64,000 nucleotides of DNA from Nitrosomonas sp. Lineage in GTDB: Bacteria > Pseudomonadota > Gammaproteobacteria > Burkholderiales > Nitrosomonadaceae. The position numbers were made by a program, and so were the translations under genes. The notes below the pieces were generated by a model. That model was not told where the DNA came from, did no database searches, and worked only from the letters and a program-made list of their open reading frames with translations. Of this stretch, positions 25,035 through 48,946 are shown one piece after another. The stretch is taken from positions 62,001-126,000 of the forward strand of contig JAHBZZ010000007.1 of NCBI GenBank assembly GCA_019635215.1, read 5' to 3'. The stretch's first letter is position 1, and each line of letters opens with the position of its first letter.

Positions 25035-28000
25035 TTAAGCAGCTGTTCCTACCAGCGTTATTTCACCGAATTCAAATTCGACGGCATCCACCAGATATTC
25101 GCTGGCATCCCAAACACCGTTACCCAGATTCTGGGGATCGCTCTGATACTGTCCGGTTGAATCGGACAAGCCGCCGAAGATGAAATCAGTGCCGTTGTAA
25201 ACACCCGCAGTCAGAACAGCGGCAGAGAAACCGGAACCGTGTTCAAGCGTGATTTGCTGATCACTGGCAAATGCATCCGCATTGAAAATCAATTCATCAA
25301 CCACCAGACCGGCATCATCCAGCAATTGCAGCCTGCCCGCATCGAAATGACCGTTGGAACTGTTACCATCAAGACGGGACAAATCAATGGTGACTTTGGT
25401 CGCCGCCTGATCCAGGTCGAAACGCAGTGCTTCCGTACCGTCGATTTCCTGGCGGATCGTACTGGAGGCTAACGTCTGACCGCTCACACCCAGATCACCA
25501 CCAAAGATATCGCCACCGCTGAGTACACCGGCATTGTTTCCGTGAAATGCAGCGCCGCTCCAGGTTTCGGTGGTATCCAGATAATCGGCTTTGTGACTGA
25601 TACTGACCGCTTCATCTGTCCAGGCATTTTCCCACGCATTCGGATCAGAACGGGAAACGCGCAACGGCGCATCGCCGATGCTGACGATTACCGGCTCTAT
25701 AGTTCCTTCGACATTGATGACCAATTGCCCGTCAACAGTGGTCAGGCCATCACTAACGGAATACACAAGATTTTCTGTGCCGAAAAAACCGGCATCAGGC
25801 GTGTAGGTGAATGATCCATCCGCCGACACATTCAGAATGCCATTTGCCGGATCAGAGACAGACACGACCTGTAATAAATCACCATCGTCGTCAGTATCGT
25901 TAGCCAGCAAACCGGATACCGCATCGATATTCAACGTATTGCCTGCCTGCACGACGTAAGTATCGTCGCCCGCTACCGGCGCATCGGGAACAGGTCCGAC
26001 TTCAACCAGCACCGTCCCCAGCACCGCGTTACCCATCCCATCGCCCAGTTGATATGAAATCACCGTTTCGCCACTGAATCCCTGCGCAGGCGTAAAGCGA
26101 AGCAGATCATTCACCACTTCAACCGTGCCGCCGTTTACATCGCCTGCGCCGAGAATGACAAGTGTATCGCCTTCGGGATCTTCGTCGTTTGCCAGCACAT
26201 CGATATCGACGGTACCGTCTTCGTCTACGGAGGCATTGTCCGGATTGGCTATAGGCGCTTCGTTCACTTCAACTGGAACAATGAGCCCAAAATCAGTCTC
26301 GGGATTAAAATCCGGATCAAATGCCGGGATATCCTGAGTTGCCTCGGCGAACGCCGGATCACCTGACAATGCCACATCAAGAACCGTCGTTTCGAACTCA
26401 AATGTTCCGGGAACCAGACCGGCATCTCGGGCAATCTGCTCTGCGGCGGCCCGAACCACTGGATCAAGATCATTGAGCGTGACTATCTCACGTGGGAAGC
26501 TTAGATCCGTAAATGTCTCTGTACTTTCACCTTCCAGGTAGTCGAAAAAGGATTCCTCATTCGTAATCCGCCAGTTGTCTGCAAAAACGCCATAGAGGTC
26601 AGTTGCTGCAACAGGCTGAGTGAGCACCGTACCATCACGAAGTGCGAGATCATTTTCGCGAATACCATCCGCGTTCCCAAACAACCCCTCGACACCAGCC
26701 CCCCGCTCTGGAGCAAGAAAGTTCTGGATTGTCAGAAAATCGGTGAAGCCGCGCCGAACAGCAGCAACAACGCCATCACCGAACTCGTTGGTAACGACGT
26801 AGGTATTGCCATTGCGATAGACGCTGCCATTCCCAACGGCGATGCTTTCGCCATTTTTCAGTTCCACGGCTTCACCATTAATGACCAGAGGGATAATTCG
26901 ATCTGCATAGACCCCAACCGTATTACCGTTAATAACTGTCGCAACTGCGGAGTTGACCGAAACCAAATTATTTCCGGGAAGTGGGGATTGCCGTACCTGG
27001 AACTCAAATTCATCGTTCTGGCCTCGGAACATAATAAACTCACCCACAGTTTGAAATGAGTACCCCAAACCGTCAAAAGTTTGAATATGTGGATCACCTC
27101 CCGTTCTCGGTCGGGGAATCGCTTCAGGAGATACGGAACCACCACCTAGTGGAGGCTGTTCTACAGGTGACGCATCCGACACAGGATTGCTTGTAGGTTT
27201 GTCCTCCGTAGCATCTTCAAGAGCTTGTTTAACTAGCTCTCCATTTTCTAAAGCTTGATCAATTGCATCAGCTGCTTCAGCCAGTTTTTTTAACGTTCCT
27301 CCAATGACACTTGCACCCGACCGTGCAGCAGCAACTACTTTATTGACAAGAATACCATCAACCAAAGTGTCGGCACCATCCTTAAGATTTTGGCCATAAT
27401 CCCGTTGGTAAGCTTCAAGTTCTTCATCTGTTATGCTATCACTCAAATTATAATTGCTTCGCCTATCTTCTCGATCTTTTGCTTTTTGGATTGCATCGTA
27501 GGTAAATGCCCCAAATGCAACTATAGCAGCTGCAACTGCCCACCAATCACCATTCGGATCCACATATTCGTTAGGAGAGTTAAGAGCGAAGCGGTACATG
27601 TTCTCAGGATCCCCGTTTAACCATTTAGGATCTTCAGATTGAAACCTTCCGAGATTATCAGAGTAGTGTCGAGCCCTCATAAACGTGAGTCCATCGCTAT
27701 CCTCAGCAACCCCCAATACCCCATTAAATTCGAAACTGTTGGCAAGACTTTCGACTTCAAAGAGTTCCGTCCCAAACGGCGTAAAAACATAATGGTTCTG
27801 AATATCACCCGACGCCCCGGTCAAAGTCGTAACCGTGCCCACCGCATCCGCATCATAGTAGGCATCCTGCCCGCCAATCTCGCCCGCGGCCAAGCCCAGC
27901 CCATGCGTGTAAGAAGCACTGAGCGACCCGCCAGTAAATTCAGACACGACGTCACCAAGCCCGAACGGATCGACCAGATATTCCGTCTCAACGCCATCGA

Positions 28001-31000
28001 CGGTCTTGGCCACCCGGTTGCCAAATAGATCGTATTCGAACGTCAGCACCGTGCCATCCGCTTCGGTCACCGCAGTCAGGCGGTTATCGAGGTCGTAGGT
28101 GTAGGTTGTCGTGCCGGTACTGTCGGTACGCGAGGTCATGTTGCCGTCGTCATCGTAGGTGAAAGTCGCGCCGCCCACCTGCGTGTACTGATTCAGCGCG
28201 TTGGCGGTGTAGAGCGTTTCCACGCCGTCTTCGACTACGCGGGTGCGGTTGCCTGCGGCGTCGTATTCGTAAACCAATGTCTTGTTTGGAATGGCCGCAT
28301 TGGTGGAAACAAAATTGGCAGCAGTGAGTTGTCCAATCGCATCATAGCCGTAGGACCAGGCGCCATCCTGGGTTTCGTTCGTTACCCGTTGTCCCGCTGC
28401 ATCGTAGGTGTAGGCATTGAACGAGTTGATGCCGCCATCAGGCGCCTGGTTCTCGATGCGGGTCAGGCGGCCTGCGTTATCGTAGGAAAAGATTGAAACA
28501 GTGCCGTTGCCGTTTTCCTCGCGTACCAGATTGCCTGCGCCGTCGTAGGCGTAGCTGACGATCTGGCTGTCCTCGTCGCGCAGTCCGGTGAGTCGACCGA
28601 GCGCGTCGTAGTCGTAAAACACATTGTAGTCGCCACCGTCGGATATCGAAGTACGCAGGCCCGCGTCATTATAGGTGTAGAAAAGCGATTTGCCGGTCAG
28701 GTAATTGATTTCGGTCATTCTGTCCGCGCTATCATAGGCAAGCGAGGTTGTGCCCTGATCATTGGTAGCCGAAATCAACCGTCCACGGTCGTCATAAACA
28801 TAGCTCGTTGGTCCTGCGGAACTGTCGGACTCCGACAAGAGCCGCCCACGCGCGTCGTAGGTGTAATCAACATTGTCGCCGCGCCGGTTGGTGAATGATG
28901 TCAGATTACCTTCCGCATCATAGTCAAAAGCCAGTTGCGTGCCGTCCGGCCAAACTGCCTCAGTAATACGCCCACCGGCATCATAAGTGAAATTGCGCGT
29001 GCCGCCACCGGCATCGGTGAATGCAATCGGCGCTTCACCGGTTTGGTCATAGGTAAAGGACAATTGCGCGCCGTTTGCATCGGTGATTTTGGTCAAACGA
29101 TTCTGACTGTCAAACTCAAATGCGGTAAAGGTGCCGTCCGGTGCACGCACACCCAGCAAATCGCCGCTTTCGTTATACACCAGTTCAGATGTATTGCCAT
29201 CGCCATCAGCAAGCCGGCCGGCAATGCCGCCTGGCAGCAAATTCAACTCGGCAGTACGACCCGCGCCGTCGGTAATGGTCACACCGCCTGTTGCGTCGTA
29301 ACTGTAGCTTTCTGTTTGCAGACCACCCGCCAGAGAAACCTGTTGCAGCCTTCCCGCGCCGTCGTAAGCGAGGTGCGTGGCAATATTGCCCGGTGCGATG
29401 GCACCAACCAGGTCGCCCGCCGCATCGTAGGAAAACTGCGACTGCCCCTGGGAACGGGTCACTGCTGCCAGCTCGCCGTTGGCGCTATAAGACAGAGCTG
29501 CGGTTGATCCATCGGCGTCGATAATCTGGGTAACCAGCCCCTGGCTGTCGCGGGTGAATGACAGGGCATTACCATTCGGCGCGGATAGTCCGGTGATTCT
29601 CCCGGCACTGTCATGACTTGCAAGCACTTGACGGCCATCGGCTGCAATCATTCCCAGAAATCCACCATTTACGTCAAATTCGAGACGATCGCCATCTGAT
29701 TTAATCGCCGTATAACCACTGGTTGTTTTATGCAATGCGCCGTCAAAAGCACCGATTGTACTGAATGAGCCGTCGATTTTACGCTCAAAGGCAGGGCGTG
29801 CTGCCGCATCAAATGCCAGTAAGTTACCACCTAGTGTCATGGTGCGCCCAACCGAAGCGGAGACCGTATAGAGTGCCGCCGAATCAATGGTCGGACTCAT
29901 CAGCGCATCGATTTCAGTGAGGCCGCGCATGCGCACCGAACCACCGTCTATGTCCAGCCCGATATCCGCAATGGTTGACCAGCCTTTACCCAGCGAACCG
30001 GTTTGGCCGCGCTCGGCTATCGAGCCAAAATCACCCGCGCTGTCGATAGCAAAAGCCAGTGCGGAAGTGGCGCTGCGTGCTTCCAGTCCGAATGACGCCA
30101 GCTTGACGCCATGCTCGGCCAGTGCACTGGTGAACGTTGCCACGGTATCCCCCAGACGTAAAACAACATTGTCGGAAAGTTTATTTATAACACCCGCTGA
30201 AAGGTATGTGGGTTGAAGTGCTTCATAGCGTGCGCCGATTTCGGTCACGGCGAAGTGATCGGCGACCTGCGCCTCAACACTGAGTGTTGAACGTGGGCCG
30301 GCGCTGCCCTTGACATTGAGCGCGATCGAACCGCTTTCACCGCGGGACAGAATGCCATCGTCACCACCTGTACCCAGTACAAATACCCGGTCAGAAAATG
30401 TTCCCGTCAACGGGTCTGCAATCAGTCCACCTTTCGCAGCGACAGAAATCAATACGGCATTGGGTGCTTCGATCGTGGTCGAGATGGAATTGCTTGATAT
30501 AACGGTTAATGGATCGTTAGTAGTCGTTGTCGACGGTGCTTCTTCACCTAACCCGCTATTCAGATAAGTTACTTCCGCAATACCAACCTCGCCAGGCGCC
30601 AACCCGTCCTGGATAGTCAGATCCAGTTCAATGGGCGCGGGCGTATCAATATTGACCGTAACCGTTGCAAAATCGAATCCGCCCCGGCCATCGCCAATTT
30701 GATAATTGAAACTATCGGATGCGCTTTGCCCGGTAAGCAGTGTGTCAGCAAGATTCGGATCGGGTGTATAGCTTGCGATACCCGCAGCCGAAATCGATAC
30801 CGTCGCGCCGGAAGGCAGCAGAATGGGAATATCCGGCGTAAATGCCATATCTCCAACGGCTGTAATCGCAAAAGGATCGCCATCGGGATCAGAATCATTC
30901 TGCAACAAATTGATTTCAACAGGCGTGCCGACTTCAGTATCAACTGAATCATTTTGCGCGTTTGGTGGGTGGTTGGTTAATGCGCCGGTTTCATCAACCT

Positions 31001-33497
31001 CGAGCAAATTCAAGTCAATCTGTTGACCGTTGGCAAATTCGATTTGACCGATGACACCGGTAGAAGACGCGGCTATTGATGTGGAGCTGAAAAAGGAATC
31101 GACACGAATACTGTCGGCGCCGACTTCGATAATCAAAGCACGTAGATCATTGGCTGCACGAAAGAAACCTAGGTCATCTGGAACAATGCCTTCGCCAAAG
31201 CGGATAATGCTGTTATCGTCATGGAATGGATAATCTTCGTGGAAAATCCTATCCTGACCAAATCCCAGCTCAAAGTAATAAATATTCGAGCCTCTGCCAC
31301 CAGACATGTGATCGTCTCCAGCAAGACCGATAATTGTATCCGACTGCACCGTCCCATAGATTAGGTCACTTTGATCTGTGCCTGTAAACGTCAACGGCTC
31401 CAAAAGATTAATAGATTCTGCATTAGCAAATTCAATTTGACTGATTATGCCAGTAGGTGATGCAGATGATGACGTTGTATTAAAAAAAGAAGGAATACGA
31501 ATGCTATCAGTATTTGCTTCAATGATCAGATCACGGCGGTCATTGGATGCGCGGGAGAAGCGCAAATCTTCCGCTGTGATTCCCTCGCCAAAGCGGATAA
31601 CTCCACCTTCGTCGCCAGATCCTGTTTCGATAATCGTATCTTGGCCAAATCCAGGTTCAAATTTATAGACATCAAGCCCTCCACGGCCTCTAAGTACGTC
31701 ATCACCTGCCATGCCATTAATCGTATCGCCAAGGCCGCTACCATAAATTGTATCGTTCTGTACTGTACCGGCAAATTCCAGTGATTCCAGAAGATTTATA
31801 AATTTACCATCGGCAAATTCAATACGGCTTATGTTACCTGATGGAAAAATATCAGAGTTTACTGAATCGTAGAACCCATCAATACGGATACTGTTTGTAC
31901 CTGCTAGGATATTCAAATGATAAAAAGAGCTGGAAGGATCTATAACAAAACGTAGCTCCTCAGGTGTAATGCCTTCAGTGAAGCGTATCATACCGCCGTC
32001 TATTACACCGCCATTCTCACCAAAAAAACTTTCATCGATCGTGTCATGACCAAAATTTGACCCAAACTCATAGATATCATAGCCTTTGTTACCCATTAGT
32101 TTGTCATTGCCCGTAAGACCATTAATCGTATCTGCTAACCCACTGCCGTAAATAGTATCGTTTTGCTCCGTACCAATGAATGCTAATGGTTCCAGAAGAT
32201 TTATAGGTTCCGCATTGGCGAATTCAATTCGACTTATAAAACCTGATGGCAAATCTTCATAGCTTGCTGTGTTATAGAACGAATTAATCCTGATGCTATC
32301 TGAATTCGCTTCAATAATTAAATCACCTGAAGCTTTTGAAGTACGAATAAATCGAAGATTCTCTGGCGCTATATCATCGCCAAACCGTATAACTCCGCCA
32401 TCCTCCCCAGAGCCGCGTTCAAAAATTGTGTCCTGGCCAAATCCTTGCTCAAATTCATAGATATCTAATCCGTATCCACCTAAAAGCCTATCATCGCCCG
32501 CGAGACCATTGATGGTATCAGCAAGTCCGGTACCGTAAATATCGTCGTTTTGATTGGTACCGATATATGTGAGTGGTTCCAAGAGGCTTATGGATTCCCC
32601 ACTGGTGAATTCGAGCGAACTTATCCTGCCAAATGGTTCGCTGGAGGAATAATTAGATGAATTATAGAATAAACGAATACGTATACTGTCACCTCCAGCC
32701 TTGATGATCAAATCCTCAAAATTATCTACAGGACGGATAAAGCGAAGATCTTCGGGAATAATACCCTCACCAAATCGTATTACACCACCGTGTAAACCCC
32801 ACCATTGTTCATTAATCGTATCCTGACCAAATCCTTGATCAAAAACATAAACATCAAACCCTCCTTCGCCTATGAGTACATCATTACCAGTCAGTCCATT
32901 AATTGTATCGGCTTCATTACTCCCCGATATCGTGTCGTCTCCTTCCGTTCCGGTAAAAATTGGCGCAAGTACGTGCGGATAAGCGGCAACCGAATTTACA
33001 TCAAAAGGAAACAAGCATTGAAACGGTTTTGTGTAACTGTCCAGATTCCAGTTGGTTTGTGCTCCAAGCTTGCCGATCGGCAACGTAGATGACGCCACAT
33101 CTGCGTGGGTCAGCCGTGCGAGTGTGTGAATAAAGCTTTGACCGATATTACCTTTGGCCAGACTGCATGCATAGACACAAATTCTTGCATCATCCGTAAT
33201 CAGGTTGCGCCAGCTGTAGAGTTCATCTTTGTAGTTTTCCAAAGCGGCCCGGTCGATCGGATAATTAGTAAAATCAATTTGTCCTGGCTGGGCATGCACT
33301 AATAAGGCGATTTCGTTTACCGGTGCAAAAACAGATAAAGACCGGGTTATTTGCAGAATCGGATTCGTTTCAGCTAAGAGCTGGACGACATGAAAATCGG
33401 GATGCAGGTTTTCGAGTAACCGGTTTGATTCCAAAACGCCCGCATCAACAAATAATAACTTTCTTTCATTGCATTTAGATTGACTGGTTAGAAACAT
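25035..33497 (-). CDS. Giant DUF4347-RTX-Rhs-vWD protein (2820 aa)
   Basis: Approximate domain order: 1-170 DUF4347-like (KLLFVDAGVLESNRLLENL, ICVYACSLAKGNIGQSFI); 180-830 five ~135-aa units, each an RTX nonapeptide block (DTINGLTGNDVLIGEGGFD) plus an HCBP-related block (GVIRFGEGI..EDLRF); a cadherin-like module (NHPPNAQNDSVDTEVGTPVE); a conserved linker; ~1280-1960 Rhs/YD repeats (YDAAGNRTRVVEDGVET, YTYDLDNRLTAVTEADG) ending in RARHYSDNLGRFQSEDPKW and NEYVDPNGD; ~1986-2130 a variable segment with one hydrophobic stretch; ~2133-2300 a von Willebrand D domain (GGDPHIQTFDGLGYSFQTVG); two cadherin-like modules; ~2606-2820 the C-terminal domain shared by all three giants. There is no signal peptide; calcium-binding repeats and the small hydrophobic C-terminus suggest type I secretion. 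Probably a surface or matrix protein. Confidence 0.8.
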   Translation of the reverse strand: MFLTSQSKCNERKLLFVDAGVLESNRLLENLHPDFHVVQLLAETNPILQITRSLSVFAPVNEIALLVHAQPGQIDFTNYPIDRAALENYKDELYSWRNLITDDARICVYACSLAKGNIGQSFIHTLARLTHADVASSTLPIGKLGAQTNWNLDSYTKPFQCLFPFDVNSVAAYPHVLAPIFTGTEGDDTISGSNEADTINGLTGNDVLIGEGGFDVYVFDQGFGQDTINEQWWGLHGGVIRFGEGIIPEDLRFIRPVDNFEDLIIKAGGDSIRIRLFYNSSNYSSSEPFGRISSLEFTSGESISLLEPLTYIGTNQNDDIYGTGLADTINGLAGDDRLLGGYGLDIYEFEQGFGQDTIFERGSGEDGGVIRFGDDIAPENLRFIRTSKASGDLIIEANSDSIRINSFYNTASYEDLPSGFISRIEFANAEPINLLEPLAFIGTEQNDTIYGSGLADTINGLTGNDKLMGNKGYDIYEFGSNFGHDTIDESFFGENGGVIDGGMIRFTEGITPEELRFVIDPSSSFYHLNILAGTNSIRIDGFYDSVNSDIFPSGNISRIEFADGKFINLLESLEFAGTVQNDTIYGSGLGDTINGMAGDDVLRGRGGLDVYKFEPGFGQDTIIETGSGDEGGVIRFGEGITAEDLRFSRASNDRRDLIIEANTDSIRIPSFFNTTSSSASPTGIISQIEFANAESINLLEPLTFTGTDQSDLIYGTVQSDTIIGLAGDDHMSGGRGSNIYYFELGFGQDRIFHEDYPFHDDNSIIRFGEGIVPDDLGFFRAANDLRALIIEVGADSIRVDSFFSSTSIAASSTGVIGQIEFANGQQIDLNLLEVDETGALTNHPPNAQNDSVDTEVGTPVEINLLQNDSDPDGDPFAITAVGDMAFTPDIPILLPSGATVSISAAGIASYTPDPNLADTLLTGQSASDSFNYQIGDGRGGFDFATVTVNIDTPAPIELDLTIQDGLAPGEVGIAEVTYLNSGLGEEAPSTTTTNDPLTVISSNSISTTIEAPNAVLISVAAKGGLIADPLTGTFSDRVFVLGTGGDDGILSRGESGSIALNVKGSAGPRSTLSVEAQVADHFAVTEIGARYEALQPTYLSAGVINKLSDNVVLRLGDTVATFTSALAEHGVKLASFGLEARSATSALAFAIDSAGDFGSIAERGQTGSLGKGWSTIADIGLDIDGGSVRMRGLTEIDALMSPTIDSAALYTVSASVGRTMTLGGNLLAFDAAARPAFERKIDGSFSTIGAFDGALHKTTSGYTAIKSDGDRLEFDVNGGFLGMIAADGRQVLASHDSAGRITGLSAPNGNALSFTRDSQGLVTQIIDADGSTAALSYSANGELAAVTRSQGQSQFSYDAAGDLVGAIAPGNIATHLAYDGAGRLQQVSLAGGLQTESYSYDATGGVTITDGAGRTAELNLLPGGIAGRLADGDGNTSELVYNESGDLLGVRAPDGTFTAFEFDSQNRLTKITDANGAQLSFTYDQTGEAPIAFTDAGGGTRNFTYDAGGRITEAVWPDGTQLAFDYDAEGNLTSFTNRRGDNVDYTYDARGRLLSESDSSAGPTSYVYDDRGRLISATNDQGTTSLAYDSADRMTEINYLTGKSLFYTYNDAGLRTSISDGGDYNVFYDYDALGRLTGLRDEDSQIVSYAYDGAGNLVREENGNGTVSIFSYDNAGRLTRIENQAPDGGINSFNAYTYDAAGQRVTNETQDGAWSYGYDAIGQLTAANFVSTNAAIPNKTLVYEYDAAGNRTRVVEDGVETLYTANALNQYTQVGGATFTYDDDGNMTSRTDSTGTTTYTYDLDNRLTAVTEADGTVLTFEYDLFGNRVAKTVDGVETEYLVDPFGLGDVVSEFTGGSLSASYTHGLGLAAGEIGGQDAYYDADAVGTVTTLTGASGDIQNHYVFTPFGTELFEVESLANSFEFNGVLGVAEDSDGLTFMRARHYSDNLGRFQSEDPKWLNGDPENMYRFALNSPNEYVDPNGDWWAVAAAIVAFGAFTYDAIQKAKDREDRRSNYNLSDSITDEELEAYQRDYGQNLKDGADTLVDGILVNKVVAAARSGASVIGGTLKKLAEAADAIDQALENGELVKQALEDATEDKPTSNPVSDASPVEQPPLGGGSVSPEAIPRPRTGGDPHIQTFDGLGYSFQTVGEFIMFRGQNDEFEFQVRQSPLPGNNLVSVNSAVATVINGNTVGVYADRIIPLVINGEAVELKNGESIAVGNGSVYRNGNTYVVTNEFGDGVVAAVRRGFTDFLTIQNFLAPERGAGVEGLFGNADGIRENDLALRDGTVLTQPVAATDLYGVFADNWRITNEESFFDYLEGESTETFTDLSFPREIVTLNDLDPVVRAAAEQIARDAGLVPGTFEFETTVLDVALSGDPAFAEATQDIPAFDPDFNPETDFGLIVPVEVNEAPIANPDNASVDEDGTVDIDVLANDEDPEGDTLVILGAGDVNGGTVEVVNDLLRFTPAQGFSGETVISYQLGDGMGNAVLGTVLVEVGPVPDAPVAGDDTYVVQAGNTLNIDAVSGLLANDTDDDGDLLQVVSVSDPANGILNVSADGSFTYTPDAGFFGTENLVYSVSDGLTTVDGQLVINVEGTIEPVIVSIGDAPLRVSRSDPNAWENAWTDEAVSISHKADYLDTTETWSGAAFHGNNAGVLSGGDIFGGDLGVSGQTLASSTIRQEIDGTEALRFDLDQAATKVTIDLSRLDGNSSNGHFDAGRLQLLDDAGLVVDELIFNADAFASDQQITLEHGSGFSAAVLTAGVYNGTDFIFGGLSDSTGQYQSDPQNLGNGVWDASEYLVDAVEFEFGEITLVGTAA
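31010..32960 (-). repeat. Five tandem RTX/HCBP-related repeat units
   Basis: Within the 2820-aa protein, about five units of ~400 bp repeat the series GTxxxDxIYGxxxADTINGLxGDD, FGQDTI, GVIRFGEGI and a Leu/Ile-rich block ending in SIRI. The calcium-binding nonapeptide part is short in each unit and the HCBP-related part long. The repeats are diverged at the DNA level, so they are older than the repeats in the 2991-aa gene. Confidence 0.8.
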
Positions 33498-41200: not shown

Positions 41201-43529
41201 CACTCTGGCGGTCTTCACCGCCCGCAAAGGTTGCGCCATTGATATTGGTGAGTTCGAGCACAACGCTTTCATCCGCTTCATCCGTTGCGTCCGCATTGAT
41301 GCGCACGTTGATAAACGCGCTGGTCTGTCCTGCCGCAATGGTCAATGCACCGTTGTCAAAATTGAGGTTTGAGAGATCGTTTTGATCCGCCGTACCGCCC
41401 AGCGTACGCCAATTCAGCGTCACAGCCGTCGTTGCCGCTTCCGACAGAATCACTTCAAATCTCAGATAATTGGTATCAGAGCTTGTAGTCGCTTCCAGCA
41501 TGCGCGCATCCCGCATCGACAGTACCGGGCCGGTGCCGGTTGTATCATCGTCAAGGATGAATGCCTGACCGGTGCTGCTTTCCGTGCCGTTGCCGATCGC
41601 ACCAACTGAGCCGGCTTGCGGGCGCAGCGATAGCGAGAAGCTTTCGCTCTTCTCCGGAGCAGTGTCGCCATTGACCGGTACGTGCACCGCCGCCTCAGTC
41701 TGCCCGGCCAGAAACGTCAACGTGCCGCTGACCGCCGTGTAGTCCGATCCCGCAACTGCACTGCCATTCACCGTCTGGTAGTCGAATGTCAGATCGGTAA
41801 CCGCGGGACGCGACAGCTTGACGGCGAATACCGCATCCTTGCTGCCCGCATCGCCTTCCTGCAACACCGGATTGCTCACCACCAGCGCGCGTTTTTCTCC
41901 TGTGCCATCGTCATCCAGAAGGATTCCCGTCGCACTCAGTCGATCACCGCCACCTGCAAATTCCGCGCCCTGAATATTGGTGAGTTCGACTATTACGCTC
42001 TCGTCAGACTCGGCTGTACTATCTGAATTTATAGAGAGATTAATAAATCCATTGGTCTGTCCTGCTGCAATGGTCAGCGTGCCGCTTGCAAATGTTGAGT
42101 TGCCAAAATCATACTGATTGGCCGTACCGGCAAGACTGCGCCAGTTTAACATGACGTCGCTGGACGCCGCTTCAGACAATACCACTTCAAAAACCATGAA
42201 ATTCGAAAAGAAACCTGATGGCTTCTCAACTAAACGTGCATCCTGTACCGAAAGTACCGGGCCGGTGCCGCTGGCATCATCATCGAATATAGTTGCTTGT
42301 CCCGTGCTGCCATCTGCTTCATTGCCAATCGCACTGACCGAACCGGCCTGCGGGCGTACCGACAGTGAAAAGTATTCACTGTTTTCGGAAATCGTGTCGC
42401 CATTGACCGGCACATGCACCGCCGCCTCAGTCTGCCCGGCCAGAAACGTCAACGTGCCGCTGACCGCCGTGTAGTCCGATCCCGCAACCGCACTGCCATT
42501 CACCGTCTGGTAATCAAACACCAGATCGGTAGCCGCCGGGCGCGACAGCTTGACGGCGAATACCGCATCCTTGCTGCCCGCATCGCCTTCCTTCAGCACC
42601 GGACTGCTTACCAGCAACGCGCGCTTCTCGCTCGTGCCGTCATCATCCAGAATGATCCCCATCGCACTCTGGCGGTCTTCACCGCCCGCAAAGGTTGCGC
42701 CATTGATATTAGTGAGTTCGAGCACAACGCTTTCATCCGCTTCATCCGTTGCGTCCGCATTGATGCGCACGTTGATAAACGCGCTGGTCTGTCCTGCCGC
42801 AATGGTCAATGCACCGTTGTCAAAATTGAGGTTTGAGAGATCGTTTTGATCCGCCGTACCGCCCAGCGTACGCCAATTCAGCGTCACAGCCGTCGTTGCC
42901 GCTTCCGACAGAATCACTTCAAATCTCAGATAATTGGTATCAGAGCTTGTAGTCGCTTCCAGCATGCGCGCATCCGACACTGAAAGTATCGAAGCAAGGG
43001 TATGTTGATAACCCGCCAAAGAGGTTAATTGGAAAGGTATCAAAACCTCAAACGGCTTTGTCAAAAAATCAAGGTTCCAGTTTTGTTTCTCCACCCATCG
43101 GCCAATCGGCAAGCTTGAAGCCGCAATTTCTGCGCCTGTTAGGTTTTTTAGTTGCTGAATAAAACTCCTGCCAGCTTCACCGGATGCCAGTTCACAGGCA
43201 TAAATGCAAATTCTGGTCTTGTTGTTGATAAAATTGTCTTGCCAAACTTCAAATTCTTCAGAGCGCCTGTGCAGTTCATTTAAATCCAATGTGTAGTTTG
43301 AAAATGCGATCTGACCGGAGCGAGCATGCACAACCAATATCACTTCCTGAACACGCTTACTCATGGAAAGCGCGTCAGTGATCTGAACAATCGGATCGCG
43401 ATTGGACTCGAGTTTTATGATGTGATATTCAGACTGTAAATCTTTTAGCAGGGTCTCTTGATTCAGAATACCTGCGTCGATAAACAAAAATTTTTGTGCA
43501 ATGACGTTGTTCTTTTTGTTTTGAAACAT
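34554..43529 (-). CDS. Giant DUF4347-Calx-beta-Rhs-vWD-PKD protein (2991 aa)
   Basis: Approximate domain order: 1-178 DUF4347-like (KFLFIDAGILNQETLLKDL, ICIYACELASGEAGRSFI); ~178-1150 seven Calx-beta-like units (ALLVSSPVLKEGDAGSKDA type) with two cadherin-like modules near the end (NPPVAVADSYATINGLPLTV); a linker homologous to that of the 2820-aa protein (GGLLADPLTGEYADSIFLLG); ~1510-2190 Rhs/YD repeats (YDAAGNRISQTEDGVTTHY) ending in a degenerate core terminus (YNDEIGRYISENS, LYRFSNNNPLEIIEQ, lacking the DPxG motif); ~2210-2318 a variable AT-rich segment; ~2319-2480 a vWD domain (VGDPHLHTFDGYNYDFQAAG); two PKD-like domains; ~2770-2991 the shared C-terminal domain. No signal peptide. Calx-beta and PKD modules point to an extracellular, calcium-stabilised adhesin-like fibre; the Rhs part may form a shell. 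Confidence 0.8.
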   Translation of the reverse strand: MFQNKKNNVIAQKFLFIDAGILNQETLLKDLQSEYHIIKLESNRDPIVQITDALSMSKRVQEVILVVHARSGQIAFSNYTLDLNELHRRSEEFEVWQDNFINNKTRICIYACELASGEAGRSFIQQLKNLTGAEIAASSLPIGRWVEKQNWNLDFLTKPFEVLIPFQLTSLAGYQHTLASILSVSDARMLEATTSSDTNYLRFEVILSEAATTAVTLNWRTLGGTADQNDLSNLNFDNGALTIAAGQTSAFINVRINADATDEADESVVLELTNINGATFAGGEDRQSAMGIILDDDGTSEKRALLVSSPVLKEGDAGSKDAVFAVKLSRPAATDLVFDYQTVNGSAVAGSDYTAVSGTLTFLAGQTEAAVHVPVNGDTISENSEYFSLSVRPQAGSVSAIGNEADGSTGQATIFDDDASGTGPVLSVQDARLVEKPSGFFSNFMVFEVVLSEAASSDVMLNWRSLAGTANQYDFGNSTFASGTLTIAAGQTNGFINLSINSDSTAESDESVIVELTNIQGAEFAGGGDRLSATGILLDDDGTGEKRALVVSNPVLQEGDAGSKDAVFAVKLSRPAVTDLTFDYQTVNGSAVAGSDYTAVSGTLTFLAGQTEAAVHVPVNGDTAPEKSESFSLSLRPQAGSVGAIGNGTESSTGQAFILDDDTTGTGPVLSMRDARMLEATTSSDTNYLRFEVILSEAATTAVTLNWRTLGGTADQNDLSNLNFDNGALTIAAGQTSAFINVRINADATDEADESVVLELTNINGATFAGGEDRQSAMGIILDDDGTSEKRALLVSSPVLKEGDAGSKDAIFTVKLSRPAATDLVFDYQTVNGSAVAGSDYTAVSGTLTFLAGQTEAAVHVSVNGDYDVEADETFNLSITPQGGGATVTATATIISDDTQNPPVAVADSYATINGLPLTVNASSGVLNNDTDIEGSTLTASLFGAPSQGTLNLNADGSFTYTPDAGFTGVDSFTYRAFDGIGYSAPTSVPITVSPIVVSSPNVVEGNAGTQQAVFSVKLLQPLVADLVLNYQTMDNSAVAGSDYMAANGTLTIPAGQTQATIQVAINGDTDLETDETFTLAITPQGGGEIFQAIATIISDDAQNTQNPPVANPDSYTVVSDTILAVNVLSGILANDTDTENDSLTASLVDAPSQGVLNLNADGSFNYTPNTGFTGTDTFTYRAFDGTGYSAPATVAIAVNSTGLPSITGNLTVPDSLYPAGIGTSQLTYQNNSSAALAGVLVLAKATGGGLLADPLTGEYADSIFLLGLGDGVGAIEGTESGTLSFHTRMADAPKGSMTVSAAIADPSQTIDWAALEAQLKPDSMSATLWHRIYTNFQSEVGNNAGEFIATLAENGQYLSSRGVRSDSATAALSFELEQAGDFGSLAERATEGTAGRGWAFLGDLQLDIAADGDAILQGSTLLGTLFTLNAEESAYYTVSSSVGQTVSLNGNVLSGVASTRPVFSKNINGSYTTSGDFDGQLIRTADGFRLENAHGDALLFDQSGVFVKAITVNGLETSATYDTAGRITGFTGPNGNTLTINWDAAGNVVSMTDANGQTVTLGYSTDGDQLIAATGTVGTANFSYDGNGDLSRATAAGGPDIDFAYDSAGRLASVSVAGGIEQTTFSYDALGGYTVTDGAGRSAHISLAPGGQVAAITDGTAATASLLYSTQGELVGVEFPDGTTAALSVDALGRPTALTDANGATLAYTYHDHFNVPVSFTDANGATRSFAYNDQGEMVQATWADGTHLDFGYNANGQITGFSNRRGESATYDYDARGRLTTESAGTSGAVSYTYDAAGNLLTATTAAGTTSLTYDAANRVTKIEYPNGRSLSYTYDAASNRTAMTDQDGNAQFYQYDAAGRLVNLSNNNGTLVSYSYDAAGNLIREDNGNGTATTYSYDAVGWLLAIHNFDATGNENSRIIYSYDIAGQRIGMETADGSWTYGYDATGQLTSAHFTSTRIGLADKQIDYVYDAAGNRISQTEDGVTTHYTANALNQYVTAGNAALSYDADGNLIAKTDSSGAWNYTYDLENRLTSVTTPTGDVTQYEYDVFGNRVALIENGVRTEFLIDPFGLGNVIGEYAANGALIASYAHGLGLAGRIAGDGSTAYYDIDGVGSVIGMTDGSGVEVNRYGYTPFGNELFEDETIANSFEFNGALGVSEDANGLSYFRAGPYNDEIGRYISENSLQIGAGLSNLYRFSNNNPLEIIEQLKFGIEFEKKIDASANNFLNGLNSLFHDDWNSAKKSFADAAAGLFFLVLDNPNPAPQVIAFKKYLELFNINEETLSQSIEVLFDLVFNALSLFQEAVAALTNYLLGRSVGDPHLHTFDGYNYDFQAAGEFTLAQGADPGLEIQVRQESRGSSGLVSVNTAVAMQVGDDVVGIYRGQPNPVNINGEFVAIADGETVAIGDGSIYRIGHTYIVTNAHGDGFWALVGGSFVDVGTFLSTERLGEIAGLLGNADGDKTNDIVLADGTVLTGPLTKQDLYGAYADSWRVTPETSLFVYGDGESTETFTNRDFPARIITVNDLDPAVRAAAEEAVRNVGLTEGTIEFENAVLDVALTGDIEFAQAAFEILQAFGAVSTGFSLNAGGDGQLNEGDTFNRLISFTDDADSDSDGRTYSIDWGDGSPIETGAVAAGGFNFNINHLFTDGNASHAVSITVADGSDDTATQQFTVNVDNVAPTIALSGAAEIDTGASYTLNLGAITDPGDDTVTSYIVNWGDGGSDTYNSAGEVTHTFAADGHYTIRVDLIDEDGTHVDAGNLAVSVNASSPAETIRIGDAPLRVSRSDPDAWENAWTNDAVSISHKANYLDTAEAWSSAALHGNNSTVLSGGDIFGGDLGVSGQSLAASTIHQEIDGMEALRFDLDQAATKVTIDLSRLDGNNSTGHFDAGRLQLLDDTGLVVDELIFNADALSGDQQITLDHATGFSSVVLTSGVYNGADFIFGGLSDANGQYLSGPQNQGNGTWNASEYLVDAVTFEFGDITLVGTTA
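40947..41511. repeat. Internal direct repeat of Calx-beta units, copy 1
   Basis: About 565 bp encoding a pair of Calx-beta units is repeated almost exactly at 42411-42975 (offset 1464 bp, only a few base differences read). A shorter, more diverged third relative begins near 41680. The repeat ends abruptly at GCGCGCATCC in both copies, consistent with unequal crossing-over within the gene. Confidence 0.85.
42411..42975. repeat. Internal direct repeat of Calx-beta units, copy 2
   Basis: Partner of 40947-41511. It encodes the first Calx-beta pair after the DUF4347 region. The near identity allows unit number to change by slippage or recombination and makes short-read assembly here unreliable. 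Confidence 0.85.
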
Positions 43530-43589
43530 TTCGGCCTCTTTATGAATTTAAAATCAATTTGCGTTTTTACTTCTCAAGTTCAACCCAAT

Positions 43590-43632: not shown

Positions 43633-43661
43633 TGCACAGAAATGAGCGATTTATAAACTAC

Positions 43662-44321
43662 TTACATTTCCGATTTTCTTCTTGCCAGACCGGCAAGCCA
43701 CAGCATGGGCAGAAGCATCAAGGACAACGTGAACGGTTCCGGGATGCCGGTTGTCACAGTGTCGGCAGTCAATTGAAACGACATGTTCAGCGTTGCCAAA
43801 TCGAAATTCCAGGCATCGCCATCCGCGGCCCGGCTCCAGCCGGTGTTGTTGCCCGTTGCGCTTTCCAGCCAATACCAGCCTTGATTACCGTCATTGTTGA
43901 AGACAGACAGGTAGTAATTCGTGTTGCCTTGCAGTACTTGATTGACGCCGAGGTCGTATTGATAGACGGTGCCGCCGAATAAGTCAGTCAGACCGCCGCT
44001 GCTGTTTCCGGTGCCTGAGAAAACCGATTCAAAAAGAAAACCGGATTGCGGATTGCCGAAACCGTCATCCGCAAAAATACGCACAGTGAGTGATTCCGTA
44101 ACCGGTGCAGCCGGATCGTAACTGCCCCACCAGCGGATATTGGTCAGTTGCACATTACCGGTGAACTGAAAATCATCGGTGGCAATTTGTACGCCGGATA
44201 GCCCGACACTCAAACTGCCGTCTCCGCCATCCAATGGTGCCTGCTCCAGAATTACCGCACTGGCAGACAAAGGTAAAATACTTAGAAATATCAATAAGGT
44301 TAGTTTTCGAATGCTATACAT
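43662..44321 (-). CDS. PEP-CTERM sorting-domain protein, copy 2
   Basis: A 219-aa near twin of the protein at 33757-34413, with the same signal peptide, beta-rich body and IPEP-hydrophobic-RR C-terminus (here ending LARRKSEM instead of LARRNIG). Only a few substitutions are visible (for example SSGGL for SSVGL, FDLAT for FDSAT). The tails diverge exactly where the duplicated segment ends, so copy 2 keeps a different stop context. It follows the 1494-aa gene by 141 bp, repeating the giant-then-PEP-CTERM arrangement. Confidence 0.92.
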   Translation of the reverse strand: MYSIRKLTLLIFLSILPLSASAVILEQAPLDGGDGSLSVGLSGVQIATDDFQFTGNVQLTNIRWWGSYDPAAPVTESLTVRIFADDGFGNPQSGFLFESVFSGTGNSSGGLTDLFGGTVYQYDLGVNQVLQGNTNYYLSVFNNDGNQGWYWLESATGNNTGWSRAADGDAWNFDLATLNMSFQLTADTVTTGIPEPFTLSLMLLPMLWLAGLARRKSEM

Positions 44322-45172
44322 TGTTATTGTCCTTTTAATTCATCATTTAGATGTTCTCGTTACTCTCATAGCGCTTCAAAATCCGGTTTTTAATCATCAA
44401 TCACCTTCTCCGGGCAGGAGAAGGTGATTGATATCGAATTCTGAAACGCGATAAGTATTATTTAAGCTGTTGTTCCTACGAGTGTTATATCCCCGAATTC
44501 AAACGTAACGGCATCCACCAGATATTCGCTGGCGTTCCAGGTACCATTGCCTTGATTCTGTGGGCCGCTCAGGTATTGTCCATTTGCATCGGACAAGCCG
44601 CCGAAGATGAAATCAGCGCCGTTGTAAACGCCTGATGTCAGAACTACCGATGAAAAACCGGTAGCATGATCCAGCGTAATTTGCTGATCACCGGAAAGTG
44701 CATCCGCATTGAAAATCAATTCATCCACCACCAGACCGGTATCGTCCAGCAATTGCAGCCTACCCGCATCGAAATGCCCGGTCGAATTGTTGCCGTCAAG
44801 ACGGGACAAATCGATGGTGACTTTGGTTGCCGCCTGATCGAGGTCGAAACGCAGCGCTTCCATACCGTCGATTTCCTGATGGATCGTGCTGGCAGCCAAC
44901 GATTGCCCACTGACGCCCAGATCGCCGCCAAAAATATCGCCGCCGCTTAATACGGTAGAATTGTTTCCATGGAGCGCAGCACTGCTCCAGGCTTCTGCTG
45001 TATCGAGATAATTCGCTTTATGGCTGATACTGACCGCATCGTTTGTCCAGGCGTTTTCCCACGCATCGGGATCGGAGCGGGACACACGCAACGGCGCATC
45101 GCCGATACGGATTGTCTCGGCAGGAGACGAGGCATTTACGGAAACAGCCAGATTGCCTGCATCGACATGTGT
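43676..45172. repeat. Long direct repeat, copy B (partner 33768-35264)
   Basis: Same content as copy A: most of a PEP-CTERM gene, the 16-bp hairpin (44396-44432) and the shared C-terminal domain of a giant gene (here the 1494-aa one). Homology fades just beyond 45172 into related but different PKD sequence. Confidence 0.92.
44396..44432. other. 16-bp perfect hairpin between giant gene and PEP-CTERM gene (copy B)
   Basis: Identical to 34488-34524, inside the long direct repeat and located 30 bp past the stop of the 1494-aa gene. Confidence 0.7.
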
Positions 45173-48100
45173 ACCGTCTTCATCAATCAGATCGACACGG
45201 ATGGTATTGCTACCTGTTACTGAATAAACATGGGCCACATCTCCGGCAGCGCTGAACGTATCGACAGTGCCATCACCCCAATTGACGATATAGCTCGTCA
45301 CTGTATCGTCCCCCGGATCGGTGATCGCACCGAGATTCAACATGTAGCTGTTACCGGTGTTGACCTCGGAAGCGCCGGACAAGGCAATAGTGGGTGCGAC
45401 ATTGTTGACCGTCACATTCAATATTCCGGCTGCAGTGTGCGTACCGTCTTCATCAACAAGGTCCACGCTGATCAGCGGATTGCCCGCGCCGTCTGCATAA
45501 ACGTGAGTCACATTGCCTGACAGGGCTTGTATTTCCGCTGACGTCAGTGCCGTAGCCGTTCCGTCACCCCAGTTGATGATGTAATCCGTTATGGTATCTG
45601 CACCGGGATCGAAAACAGATCCCGTTAGCGTATAGATTGATCCTTCATCGACCGACGCATCGCCAATCAATGTCATCACCGGCGCAACATTATTGACACC
45701 CAACACAAACTGCCGTGTATCCGTATCGCCCGCGGTATCAGCCACGGTGACACTGACGGTATGCGACGCATCGCCATCGGCAAACAGGCGGCCGATATCG
45801 AAGGTATTTGCACCAGCTGCAATCACGCCATTCTCAACAGCAGAACCGTCACCCCAGTCCACGCTGTACGTCCAGCCGTCTGCTCCGGCATCCTCACCGT
45901 CATTGAAAGTGATTGTGCGGGTAAAGAGGCTGCCTTCGTTAATGACTGCATCGACCCCGGCATTCACCGAAACGCCATCGGGGATAATGACCGTGTTGAC
46001 TGCAACAGCCAGCGTGCCTGCGGCAGTATGCACACCGTCCTCGTCCACCAGATCGACACTGATCGTGTAATTGCCTTCGGCAGCAAATGTATGGATAACC
46101 TCTCCGGCGGTATCATAGATATTACTGCTGCCATCGCCCCAATTGACGATATAGCTCGTCACCGTATCGTTACCCGGATCGGTGATGGCACCCAGATTCA
46201 GCATATAGTCAGCGCCCGTATTGATCGTATCAGCGCCCAGCAGCGCAATCGTCGGCGCGACATTATTGACGTTAAGCTGGAATTGTTGCGTATCGGTATC
46301 ACCCGCAGTGTCGGTCACGGTGACACTGACCGTATGCAATGCGTCACCATCGGCAAAGAGGCGGCTGATATCAAAAGTATTCTCACCAGCTGCAATGCTG
46401 CCTGTCTCAGCCAGAGAACCATCTCCCCAATCCACGCTGTAAGTCCAGCCGTCCGATCCGGCATCTTCACCATCGCTGAAGATGATCGTGCGGGTGAAGA
46501 AGCTGCCTTCATTGATGACTGCATCGATGCCGGCATTTATGGAAACGCCATCAGGGATGATTATCGGGTTGACTGCAACAACCAGCGTACCGGCGGCAGT
46601 ATGAGTGTCATCCTCGTCGACCAGATCAACACTGATCGTGTAATTGCCATCGGTAGCAAACGTATGCGTAACCTCTCCGGCAGTATCGTAAGTATTACTG
46701 CTGCCATCGCCCCAGTTGACGATATAGCTGGTGATCGTATCATCACCGGGATCGATGATTTCTCCCAGATTCAGGGTATAGCTGACCCCCGCATCCACTT
46801 CCGGCAGTCCTGACAATGCAATCGTCGGGACCACGTTGTTCACATCGAGCTGGAATTGTTGCGTATTCGTATCACCCGCAGTGTCAGTTACGGTGACGCT
46901 GACGGTATGTGATGCATCACCGTCAGCAAAAATGCGGCTAATATTGAAACTATTGACACCGGCTGCAATTGCACCATTTTCAGCGGCGGAATCACCCCAG
47001 TCGATACTATAGGTCCAGCCATCTGCGTCAGTATCCTCACCATCCGTAAATAAAATCGTACGAGTGAAAAGGCTGCCTTCGTTTAAAGAAAAGTCTTCTC
47101 CAGCATCCAGAGTGATTCCTGCAGGCGGCGTATTGACGGCAACCAGAAGACTGCCTGCATTGGTATGCGTGCCGTCTTCATCAACCAGGTCAACGGTTAT
47201 CGCGGTATTCCCCACCGTTGAATAGACATGTGTAACATCACCCGCGCTGTTATACGTTTCACTGCTGCCATCCCCCCAGTTCACAATGTAACTGATGACC
47301 GTGTCTAGCCCGGGATCGGTGATTGCGCTCAGGTTCAGCGTATAGTCAGCGCCAGTATTTACCGTATCAACGCCCAGCAACGCAATCGTCGGCGCAACAT
47401 TATTGACGTTAAGCTGGAATTGCTGCGTATCGGTATCACCCGTAGTGTCAGTCACGGTGACGCTGACAGTATGTGATGCGTCGCCATCGGCAAAGAGGCG
47501 GCTGATATCGAAAGTATCCGCACCGGCTGCAATGCTGCCTGTTTCAGCCGGAGAACCATCACCCCAGTCTACGCTGTAAGTCCAGCCATCTGCATTAGTA
47601 TCCAGGTCATCAATAAAACTGACGGTACGAGTAAAAAGGCTACCTTCATTTACATTTGCAGTGTTGCCGGCATTGACCGTAATGCCTTCAGGTGGCGGTA
47701 AAATATCGCCATCAAGAATCGTTATGGTACCCGTAGCGCCCGCCGATCCATTGGCTATGGCCGGTGTCGGCGTCACTGTCAAGCTGAATGTCTCGCTGGG
47801 TTCATCAATAGCATCGCCAATAATCGGTATGATCGCTGCCGCCGAGGTCTGTCCGGGTAAAAAAGTCACTGTTCCCGTCTGCGAAGTATAGTCCTGACCT
47901 GCAATAGCGTTGCCATCCGACGTCTGGTATTGGAATGTCAAAGTCTGATCTGAAGGGCGGGATAAATGAACAGGCACCGCGACTTCCCGTGTTACACCAT
48001 CCGCGCCTTCGACGATTTCCGAATTCCCAACGAACAACCCTAAATCATTGCCAACACCGTCATCATCATGAATCAGGCCGATCGCTTGCAGGGTATTTAC

Positions 48101-48946
48101 ACCATCAGGGAATACCGCATTGCTGGGATTGTACAATTCCAACACCACGCTTTCGTCAGCCTCGTCAGCATTGTCACCATATACCTGAACATAAACCGTC
48201 CCGCTGCTCTGACCGGCTGCAATCTGGATATAACTGGATGCTTCGTTGTAATCCACTTCGCCCGTCGCCGTACCGACATCATCCAGTGTCCGGTAGTAGA
48301 TGCGTACCGTATCTGCCGCAGGCTCCGATAACGTAACCGTGAATTCCATGTACCGGTAGCTGCTGTTACCTTCACCGACATGCAAAACAGATGTGCTTCG
48401 ATTAACAGAGATCACAGATTCAAGTGTATGCGCATAATTTAGCAATGAATCTTGATGAAACGGATTTGAAGCAGAAAAGAATGTTGTAAAGCGATCAAAA
48501 TTCCAGTTTTTACCTTTTCCGGTATCACCCATTTGCAAACTCGACGCTGCAACTTCGGCGCCGGTAAAATCTTTGAGCGTATCGATAAATGCCAGCCCTT
48601 CCTTGTCTGCAGCCAGTTGGCACGCATAAATACAGAGTTTCGCATCCGTTGACAGTGATTCGCGCCATGTCTGCAATTGTTGACGATGCCACTCCAATTC
48701 TTCAGTACCCACCAACCCGCCGGAAAAATGAATTTGACCTGGTATCGCATGCACAACCAGAACAATTTCTTCTACAGGTGAATGTGCGTGGACCGCATTG
48801 GTGAGTTGTGCGATAGGTTCTGATTCCGGATCGAGCCGGATGACCCGATAACCCGGCCTGAGGTCTTTGAGCAGGATTTCCGTATCCAGAACATTTGCGT
48901 CGATAATCAGCAGTTTGTTTGCATTGATTTTATTCTTTTGAGACAT
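44462..48946 (-). CDS. Giant DUF4347-Calx-beta-PKD protein (1494 aa)
   Basis: Approximate domain order: 1-170 DUF4347-like (KLLIIDANVLDTEILLKDL, LCIYACQLAADKEGLAFI); ~176-416 two Calx-beta units (VILHV-type start, SEIVEGADGVTREVAVPVHL); ~419-1256 a chain of paired PKD-like domains (WTYSVDWGDGSPAETGSIAAG, TSYIVNWGDGSSNTYDTAGE); ~1273-1494 the C-terminal domain, identical in sequence to that of the 2991-aa protein. It lacks the Rhs and vWD modules of the two larger relatives. No signal peptide; Shine-Dalgarno GGGGAGAA precedes the ATG. Probably an extracellular fibrous protein exported by a type I system encoded elsewhere. Confidence 0.82.
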   Translation of the reverse strand: MSQKNKINANKLLIIDANVLDTEILLKDLRPGYRVIRLDPESEPIAQLTNAVHAHSPVEEIVLVVHAIPGQIHFSGGLVGTEELEWHRQQLQTWRESLSTDAKLCIYACQLAADKEGLAFIDTLKDFTGAEVAASSLQMGDTGKGKNWNFDRFTTFFSASNPFHQDSLLNYAHTLESVISVNRSTSVLHVGEGNSSYRYMEFTVTLSEPAADTVRIYYRTLDDVGTATGEVDYNEASSYIQIAAGQSSGTVYVQVYGDNADEADESVVLELYNPSNAVFPDGVNTLQAIGLIHDDDGVGNDLGLFVGNSEIVEGADGVTREVAVPVHLSRPSDQTLTFQYQTSDGNAIAGQDYTSQTGTVTFLPGQTSAAAIIPIIGDAIDEPSETFSLTVTPTPAIANGSAGATGTITILDGDILPPPEGITVNAGNTANVNEGSLFTRTVSFIDDLDTNADGWTYSVDWGDGSPAETGSIAAGADTFDISRLFADGDASHTVSVTVTDTTGDTDTQQFQLNVNNVAPTIALLGVDTVNTGADYTLNLSAITDPGLDTVISYIVNWGDGSSETYNSAGDVTHVYSTVGNTAITVDLVDEDGTHTNAGSLLVAVNTPPAGITLDAGEDFSLNEGSLFTRTILFTDGEDTDADGWTYSIDWGDSAAENGAIAAGVNSFNISRIFADGDASHTVSVTVTDTAGDTNTQQFQLDVNNVVPTIALSGLPEVDAGVSYTLNLGEIIDPGDDTITSYIVNWGDGSSNTYDTAGEVTHTFATDGNYTISVDLVDEDDTHTAAGTLVVAVNPIIIPDGVSINAGIDAVINEGSFFTRTIIFSDGEDAGSDGWTYSVDWGDGSLAETGSIAAGENTFDISRLFADGDALHTVSVTVTDTAGDTDTQQFQLNVNNVAPTIALLGADTINTGADYMLNLGAITDPGNDTVTSYIVNWGDGSSNIYDTAGEVIHTFAAEGNYTISVDLVDEDGVHTAAGTLAVAVNTVIIPDGVSVNAGVDAVINEGSLFTRTITFNDGEDAGADGWTYSVDWGDGSAVENGVIAAGANTFDIGRLFADGDASHTVSVTVADTAGDTDTRQFVLGVNNVAPVMTLIGDASVDEGSIYTLTGSVFDPGADTITDYIINWGDGTATALTSAEIQALSGNVTHVYADGAGNPLISVDLVDEDGTHTAAGILNVTVNNVAPTIALSGASEVNTGNSYMLNLGAITDPGDDTVTSYIVNWGDGTVDTFSAAGDVAHVYSVTGSNTIRVDLIDEDGTHVDAGNLAVSVNASSPAETIRIGDAPLRVSRSDPDAWENAWTNDAVSISHKANYLDTAEAWSSAALHGNNSTVLSGGDIFGGDLGVSGQSLAASTIHQEIDGMEALRFDLDQAATKVTIDLSRLDGNNSTGHFDAGRLQLLDDTGLVVDELIFNADALSGDQQITLDHATGFSSVVLTSGVYNGADFIFGGLSDANGQYLSGPQNQGNGTWNASEYLVDAVTFEFGDITLVGTTA
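45400..47690 (-). repeat. Four tandem ~571-bp PKD-pair repeats
   Basis: Within the 1494-aa gene, the anchor sequence AGGCTGCCTTCGTT and its variants recur at about 45922, 46494, 47067 and 47632, giving a period of 565-573 bp (190 codons, one pair of PKD-like domains). Neighbouring units are very similar at the DNA level, so unit number may vary between strains. Confidence 0.8.

Follow-up and report, generated by a model that had tools for sequence, protein, structure and literature searches.

Three giant genes and their shared ends

The stretch of DNA analysed here (the window) comprises 64,000 nucleotides of a contig from Nitrosomonas sp. (assembly GCA_019635215.1; 3,385,269 bases in 46 contigs). 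It carries an array of three giant genes on the minus strand, encoding 1494, 2991 and 2820 amino acids (aa), which begin with a DUF4347 domain, end with a shared C-terminal domain of ~210 aa and differ in their middles. We put the probability that the giants form a tandem family of type-I-secreted, calcium-binding modular surface proteins with adhesin-like function at roughly 60%. The reading that they diversify by recombination is well supported: modules are exchanged between species, with breakpoints inside the gene, and probably also between tandem copies.

The preliminary description, made from the letters of the window, had reported three consecutive giants of these sizes, and all three open reading frames (ORFs) were confirmed to be open, each over 4.5-9 kb. 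The pattern described is correct and goes beyond chance. The DUF4347-like N-terminus it had proposed was recovered in all three by Pfam (PF14252), starting at residue 12-15 with expect values (E) from 1.4e-33 to 1.2e-36 and scores of 116.4, 120.1 and 126.3 bits against a gathering cut-off of 24.6 bits. No signal peptide was apparent by eye ahead of DUF4347. The middles, also found by Pfam with the modules originally listed, are given in Table 1. The C-terminal ~210 aa gave no match in Pfam (E up to 0.01) and none in NCBIfam (E up to 1). The ends had been called constant, and this holds for the C-terminal domains, which are 100, 83 and 83% identical in pairwise comparison within the window genome and carry a conserved GGDxxxGDxGVSG motif; the first 180 residues are 43, 40 and 44% identical, for which "fixed" was too strong a word. 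Two small genes lie between the giants and were absent from the preliminary description. The array ends with a gene of 441 aa without Pfam match, which has homologues at the same place in Nitrosomonas sp. Nm51 (445 aa, 65% identical) and in Nitrosomonas marina Nm71 (a 306-aa frame near the contig end).

Recombination and exchange of modules

Genes 1 and 2 share their C-terminal domain down to the DNA sequence, as part of an exact repeat of 1,176 bp, which spans the C-terminal end, the spacer and about half of the small gene that follows. Outside it, every 50 bases hold 0-8 differences between the two copies across the remainder of the small gene, and more than that on the opposite side. The repeat is a recent copy or a gene conversion, and since it includes non-coding and synonymous positions, it is not due solely to selection on the protein.

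The N-terminal domains mostly pair by position in the array. Gene 1 is 63% identical to the first giant of Nm51, and gene 2 is 66 and 65% identical to the second giants of Nm51 and Nm71, compared with 40-44% between paralogs of the window. The exception is the first giant of Nm71, of which the N-terminus is 46% identical to gene 1 and 55% to the first giant of Nm51 overall. This N-terminus is itself a mosaic, with 68 and 78% identity, respectively, over the first 80 residues and ~40% thereafter. The middles of the giants in the first position are different in the three species (Calx-beta and PKD; Calx-beta and cadherin-like/Big_9; Big_5, NIDO, VWD and PKD), and ~1,040 residues of the first giant of Nm71 were unmatched in the 10 other giants compared.

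The second giants of Nm51 and Nm71 show the exchange most directly. Their DNA is 98-100% identical over ~2.4 kb, followed by blocks of 68-85%, ~97%, 80-89%, ~50% after the RHS core, 81-86%, 96% and 76-89%, against a baseline of 80-84% around the alanyl-tRNA synthetase (AlaRS) gene. Identity at fourfold-degenerate sites follows the same blocks, with 93-100% at residues 101-900, 42-68% at residues 901-1400, 98% at residues 1401-1500 and 96-97% at residues 2796-2995, and therefore the sharp blocks point to transfer of segments and not to protein constraint. The giants in the same position with related ends and different middles in three genomes, together with these identity blocks, bear out the earlier proposal of a modular family which diversifies by recombination. 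The G+C content of the giants, 50.0-53.1%, is close to that of the window (49.6%), so composition gives no sign of recent import. In the Nm71 genome (G067; L088 and L090 on G067:C43) the AlaRS query matched three separate pieces, at 38708, 40976 and 46484, and not one gene.

Distribution and gene order in relatives

The nearest named relatives of the C-terminal domain were found in Nm71, Nm51 and two Nitrosomonas metagenome-assembled genomes (MAGs) at 60-80% identity, and the next in MAGs of Pseudomonadales, Rubrivivax and Methylococcaceae at 42-44% (seven loci in all). Within a set of 85 Nitrosomonas genomes, DUF4347 was present in 44, the small protein in 11 (three of them weak) and the C-terminal domain in nine. 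The latter occupies 13 places, 12 of which are full-length and distributed over eight genomes, while the 13th, in G012, is a fragment of 42 residues with stops. DUF4347 accompanies nine of the 12 full-length domains: the three giants of the window, two each in G067 and G100, and one each in G006 and G068. The remaining places are cut by a contig end (G084) or are ORFs without DUF4347 (G022, G080). A small gene follows at eight of the 12 places (two in the window, G067, G100, G006, G080, G084, G068) and the 441/445-aa gene at three (window, G067, G100), with neither at G022. The preliminary description had named two findings which would speak against it, namely a C-terminal region that is a common known domain without link to DUF4347 proteins, and genes absent or fragmented in a long-read assembly. 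With nine genomes of 85 and DUF4347 at three quarters of the full-length places, the domain does not fit the former, and orthologous arrays were found in other assemblies.

In both Nm51 and Nm71 a giant is followed by a small gene, then a second giant and then the 445-aa gene or its beginning; the window genome has an additional giant, the third, together with its small gene. In G068 the giant lies in two frames (L126 95-5549, G068:C30) with a transposase-like gene upstream by eye, and we take its DUF4347 and C-terminal domain to belong to one broken gene. Its PEP-CTERM-like neighbour is kept, though only 23-32% identical to the other small proteins. Outside the genus, the Methylococcaceae protein also begins with DUF4347 and has no comparable small gene beside it among the ORFs seen; the proteins from Rubrivivax and Pseudomonadales are truncated on their 5' side. 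Next after the Rubrivivax gene comes a small gene whose product has an EP-helix-RRR end by eye and is 24-31% identical to the small proteins.

Export machinery

The preliminary description had suggested looking for type I secretion genes elsewhere in the genome, and PrtD, HlyD and TolC of such a system were found above their cut-offs on contig C43 of the window genome; the LapB-type family TIGR03375 stayed below its cut-off. PrtD was matched at E 1e-120 or better in 43 of the 44 genomes with DUF4347 compared with 32 of the 41 others (p 0.006, relatedness ignored), and in all eight genomes with a full-length C-terminal domain. G012 (L075, G012:C10), the sole genome with the decayed fragment, is among the 10 of 85 genomes without a PrtD match. 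PrtD and HlyD are neighbours of the gene that carries the C-terminal domain in the MAG from Pseudomonadales. The LapG protease (PF06035) was found in none of the 85 Nitrosomonas genomes, while Caulobacter was matched among 14 control genomes.

Type I export begins at the C-terminus. The C-terminal domain of the giants would thus emerge first and DUF4347 last, which would place DUF4347 where the retention plug sits in LapA-like proteins.

The C-terminal domain and DUF4347

The ends of the giants may serve export or anchoring, as the preliminary description had suggested. The predicted structure of the C-terminal domain looks like a ligand-binding domain of the carbohydrate-binding module (CBM) kind rather than a mere signal. 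One scan of viral contigs gave no relative of it, and PHROG at E 0.1 gave no match for the C-terminal domain of gene 3, small protein 2 or the 441-aa protein.

In an alignment of 34 DUF4347 sequences, which omits five of 30 loci (L038, L057, L059, L060, L061) as well as L082 and the G006 giant, the Cys of a Y-x-C motif is present in 34 and the His of an H-G/A motif in 33. A His/Cys dyad is a mark of clan CD peptidases. Comparison of the DUF4347 profile by hhalign with 20 CHAT domains (20 of 25 places) gave a score of 25.3, against at most 15.8 in 40 column shuffles and 12.0 with the reversed profile, and aligned His-Gly with His-Gly and Cys with Cys. Among 12 canonical members of DUF4347, one matched Peptidase_C80 (E 8.9e-4; 20.0 bits, below the cut-off of 23.8) and one matched CHAT at E 0.12. 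The latter is regarded as noise, since unrelated families reach similar values with DUF4347 members (Ig_C17orf99 in three of 12, best E 0.011; ETF_alpha 0.023; others to 0.13). From sequence comparison of this kind we give a caspase-like fold of DUF4347 about even odds. A sequence search of the PDB gave a single entry for DUF4347: chain G of 9qpe, which bears the name "DUF4347 domain-containing protein" (E 0.0013). The literature searched held no paper devoted to DUF4347, the word occurring a single time in each of four papers.

In viral contigs, relatives of DUF4347 were not found with a single-protein query, and three loci were found with an alignment query. The DUF4347 of L080 (129-611) lies on a contig from a viral collection and has Asn in place of the conserved His. 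The window genome contains a fourth DUF4347 giant of 1960 aa (L018 7308-13190, G000:C1), which lacks the shared C-terminal domain and has RTX and DUF4214 matches towards its C-terminus, with flagellin- and flagellar-cap-like genes nearby by eye.

The small genes

Both small proteins show, by eye, a hydrophobic start, a PEP motif, a hydrophobic helix and a basic end, and they match DUF7901 in Pfam with 30.2 and 29.3 bits over a cut-off of 24 bits. An exosortase is present in the window genome above its cut-off. Small protein 2 gave chance-level matches only when the PDB was searched by sequence. That the small protein could be a relative of the C-terminal domain was considered and dropped, with an hhalign probability of 0.29%. 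Two further relatives, L123 245-988 and L124 309-1181 (in G069 and G065), are 48-50% identical to the small proteins of the window and have clear PEP-CTERM ends by eye.

Proposed model and alternatives

As exported adhesins the giants are plausible, and we propose the following working scheme. The C-terminal domain would leave the cell first and form a CBM-like, ligand-binding tip, with the export signal at its extreme end. The Calx-beta, cadherin-like, PKD, RTX, RHS and VWD modules would serve as an exchangeable stalk. DUF4347, leaving last, would probably hold the protein at the surface and perhaps release it through its His/Cys pair. The small gene found after most giants encodes a probable exosortase substrate, which may be a co-anchored partner. 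New versions would come from homologous recombination, both within the set of tandem copies and across species.

Several observations weigh against this scheme or parts of it. The type I genes do not adjoin the array, 32 of 41 genomes without DUF4347 also have PrtD, and G094, with DUF4347, shows none. RTX matches occur only in gene 3 (best stretch residues 182-216) and in neither of the other two. The model of the C-terminal domain is of moderate quality (predicted local distance difference test 74.5, predicted template modelling score 0.79) and is weakest at residues 56-63 and 70-84, beside the best-conserved motif. Among the 50 Foldseek matches listed, query template modelling scores reach at most 0.39; in a second structural look the list with CBM-like matches also includes the unrelated-looking Elapor1, Eph receptor and meprin, and no PDB sequence proved related to the C-terminal profile, the lone match being at chance level (E 0.51). 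For DUF4347, the likeness to CHAT is weak (hhalign probability just 7.7%), the Pfam matches of its members beyond DUF4347 itself are at or near noise, and L080 is an exception to the conserved His. Small protein 2 matches choice-of-anchor R and PEP-CTERM families in NCBIfam, all below cut-offs, and the small protein of G006 lacks the PEP letters. The relatives in G069 and G065 are solitary, with no giant adjoining in the stretch seen, so the pairing of small gene and giant is not obligatory. Finally, between gene 2 and the second giant of Nm51 the RHS and VWD blocks are 77-88% identical, compared with 38-57% in the Calx-beta blocks and 67% in the N-terminus; the middle is thus not always the less conserved part.

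The most serious competitor, which we still consider somewhat unlikely, would reduce the C-terminal domain to the type I export signal region, without a ligand, and leave binding to the middles. All eight Nitrosomonas giants printed do end with this domain, with ITLVG near the end, and the domain keeps its type while the middles change. However, ~210 aa with a CBM-like predicted fold and the GGDxxxGDxGVSG motif are much more than a signal would need, and the Pseudomonadales relative has a tail of ~46 residues beyond the domain. A contact weapon of the Rhs type, in which an RHS shell with a variable tip would be the active part and the rest would serve delivery, would account for the RHS repeats and Rhs_assc_core in genes 2 and 3 and for variability being highest after the core (one block has 28% identity between Nm51 and Nm71). 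We find this improbable, since the variable stretch is internal, before VWD, and matched no Pfam family. RHS matches are also missing from gene 1 and from the first giants in Nm51 and Nm71. The narrower reading as a polymorphic toxin was dropped, as the chains end in the C-terminal domain and the next gene is either PEP-CTERM-like or the 441-aa gene.

It is very improbable that an assembly error produced the array or its exact repeat, or that the locus is decaying. An assembly of 46 contigs with an exact repeat of 1,176 bp could indeed mislead short reads, and the relative in G068 has its giant in two frames beside a transposase-like gene. Against this stand the three long open frames, the same order with diverged sequence in two other assemblies, and the differences beyond the exact stretch, which make the copies two distinct sequences.

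An extended form of the scheme, in which DUF4347 would be a caspase-like, self-releasing plug that tethers the type-I-exported giants in the outer membrane channel without LapG, and gene conversion between tandem copies would homogenise the lectin-like tip along with a portion of its own exosortase-anchored partner gene, with stalks freely exchanged also between species, is speculative, and we consider it improbable as a whole.

Comparison with known systems

The giants appear to work like a giant type I adhesin; by the features tested, they do not belong to the RTX-adhesin or DDxP families. Of the features of LapA/AhLap-type adhesins, the giant stalk of immunoglobulin (Ig)-like, Calx-beta and cadherin-like modules and a type I system in the genome are present, while RTX repeats near the C-terminus and the LapG protease are missing. 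AhLap of Aeromonas hydrophila is an RTX adhesin with split-domain ligand-binding modules (PMC12077191). The likeness consists in a very large modular protein outside the cell, with a stalk of Ig-like type, ligand binding by a CBM-like domain on the C-terminal side and a C-terminal type I export signal, the last being presumed for the window giants. In contrast to AhLap as described there, genes 1 and 2 have no RTX match, DUF4347 is N-terminal, the chain finishes with the CBM-like domain, a PEP-CTERM-like gene comes next, and the genus has no LapG among the genomes searched.

DDxP proteins are giant mosaics also reported from Nitrosomonas, for which type I export has been suggested (PMC7730722), and they resemble the giants in varying by exchange of modules. 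Membership was dropped, as none of the eight giants checked has a DDxP or DGDGD motif. BapP of Pseudoalteromonas tunicata has Calx-beta and Big_9 repeats, as the window giants do, and in both the export route is unsettled; BapP differs by an N-terminal beta-propeller and a predicted signal peptide where the giants have DUF4347 (PMC12153261). Calx-beta, Big_9 and cadherin-like repeats are ordinary components of large exported proteins (PMC12153261). All four DUF4347 giants of the window genome are members of the Pfam family, and genomes with DUF4347 are mostly without this C-terminal domain (44 versus nine of 85). In the literature searched, with most subscription papers outside the search, we found no description of a chain that unites DUF4347, RHS and VWD with this C-terminal domain.

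The array provides a defined and variable set of candidate adhesins for ammonia oxidisers. It also links the unexplained DUF4347, found in 44 of the 85 Nitrosomonas genomes, to probable type I export in a genus for which the search for LapG found none. As modules have moved between species with breakpoints within the gene, the role of each end can be tested directly.

Features and surroundings of the array

Table 1. Coordinates of the array and its parts (positions in the window)
Feature	Position	Strand	Basis
Giant gene 1, 1494 aa: DUF4347, Calx-beta, PKD repeats, C-terminal domain	44462..48946	-	ORF and Pfam
Giant gene 2, 2991 aa: DUF4347, Calx-beta, cadherin-like/Big_9, RHS, VWD, PKD, C-terminal domain	34554..43529	-	ORF and Pfam
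Giant gene 3, 2820 aa: DUF4347, RTX, Big_9/cadherin-like, RHS, VWD, cadherin-like, C-terminal domain	25035..33497	-	ORF and Pfam
DUF4347 of gene 1, residues 12-175	48422..48913	-	Pfam, E 1.2e-36
DUF4347 of gene 2, residues 15-178	42996..43487	-	Pfam, E 1e-34
DUF4347 of gene 3, residues 14-177	32967..33458	-	Pfam, E 1.4e-33
C-terminal ~210-aa domain of gene 1	44465..45094 (G000:C44:106465-107094)	-	Sequence search
C-terminal ~210-aa domain of gene 2, identical to that of gene 1	34557..35186	-	Sequence comparison
C-terminal ~210-aa domain of gene 3, 82-83% to genes 1 and 2	25038..25667	-	Sequence comparison
Small gene 1, 219 aa: hydrophobic N-terminus, PEP-CTERM-like tail by eye, DUF7901 match	43662..44321	-	Pfam; same-place orthologs in other species
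Small gene 2, 218 aa, 98% identical to small gene 1	33757..34413	-	ORF, Pfam, NCBIfam
441-aa gene ending the array	23589..24914	-	ORF; homologues elsewhere
Exact repeat of 1,176 bp, copy a	34089..35264		Exact DNA match
Exact repeat of 1,176 bp, copy b	43997..45172		Exact DNA match

Between 33400 and 49300, patterns of promoters and terminators did not rise above chance level, and no RNA family except tRNA reached its threshold. Directly upstream of the array, at 49261-52563, lies a gene for a protein of 1100 aa with NACHT and HEAT matches and only a weak PADLOC match. At the other end a LuxR-type gene with an autoinducer-binding domain (22738-23520) adjoins the array. The LuxR-like genes near the arrays of the window and of Nm51, where the gene is upstream of the array, share only 27% identity, so we do not claim a common LuxR regulator. 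The stretch between the RHS core and VWD in genes 2 and 3 (approximately 36570-36929 and 27099-27530) is hypervariable between relatives. It measures 125 and 168 aa from a YRF motif to VWD, has no Pfam match and resembles an Rhs tip, but is located inside the chain.

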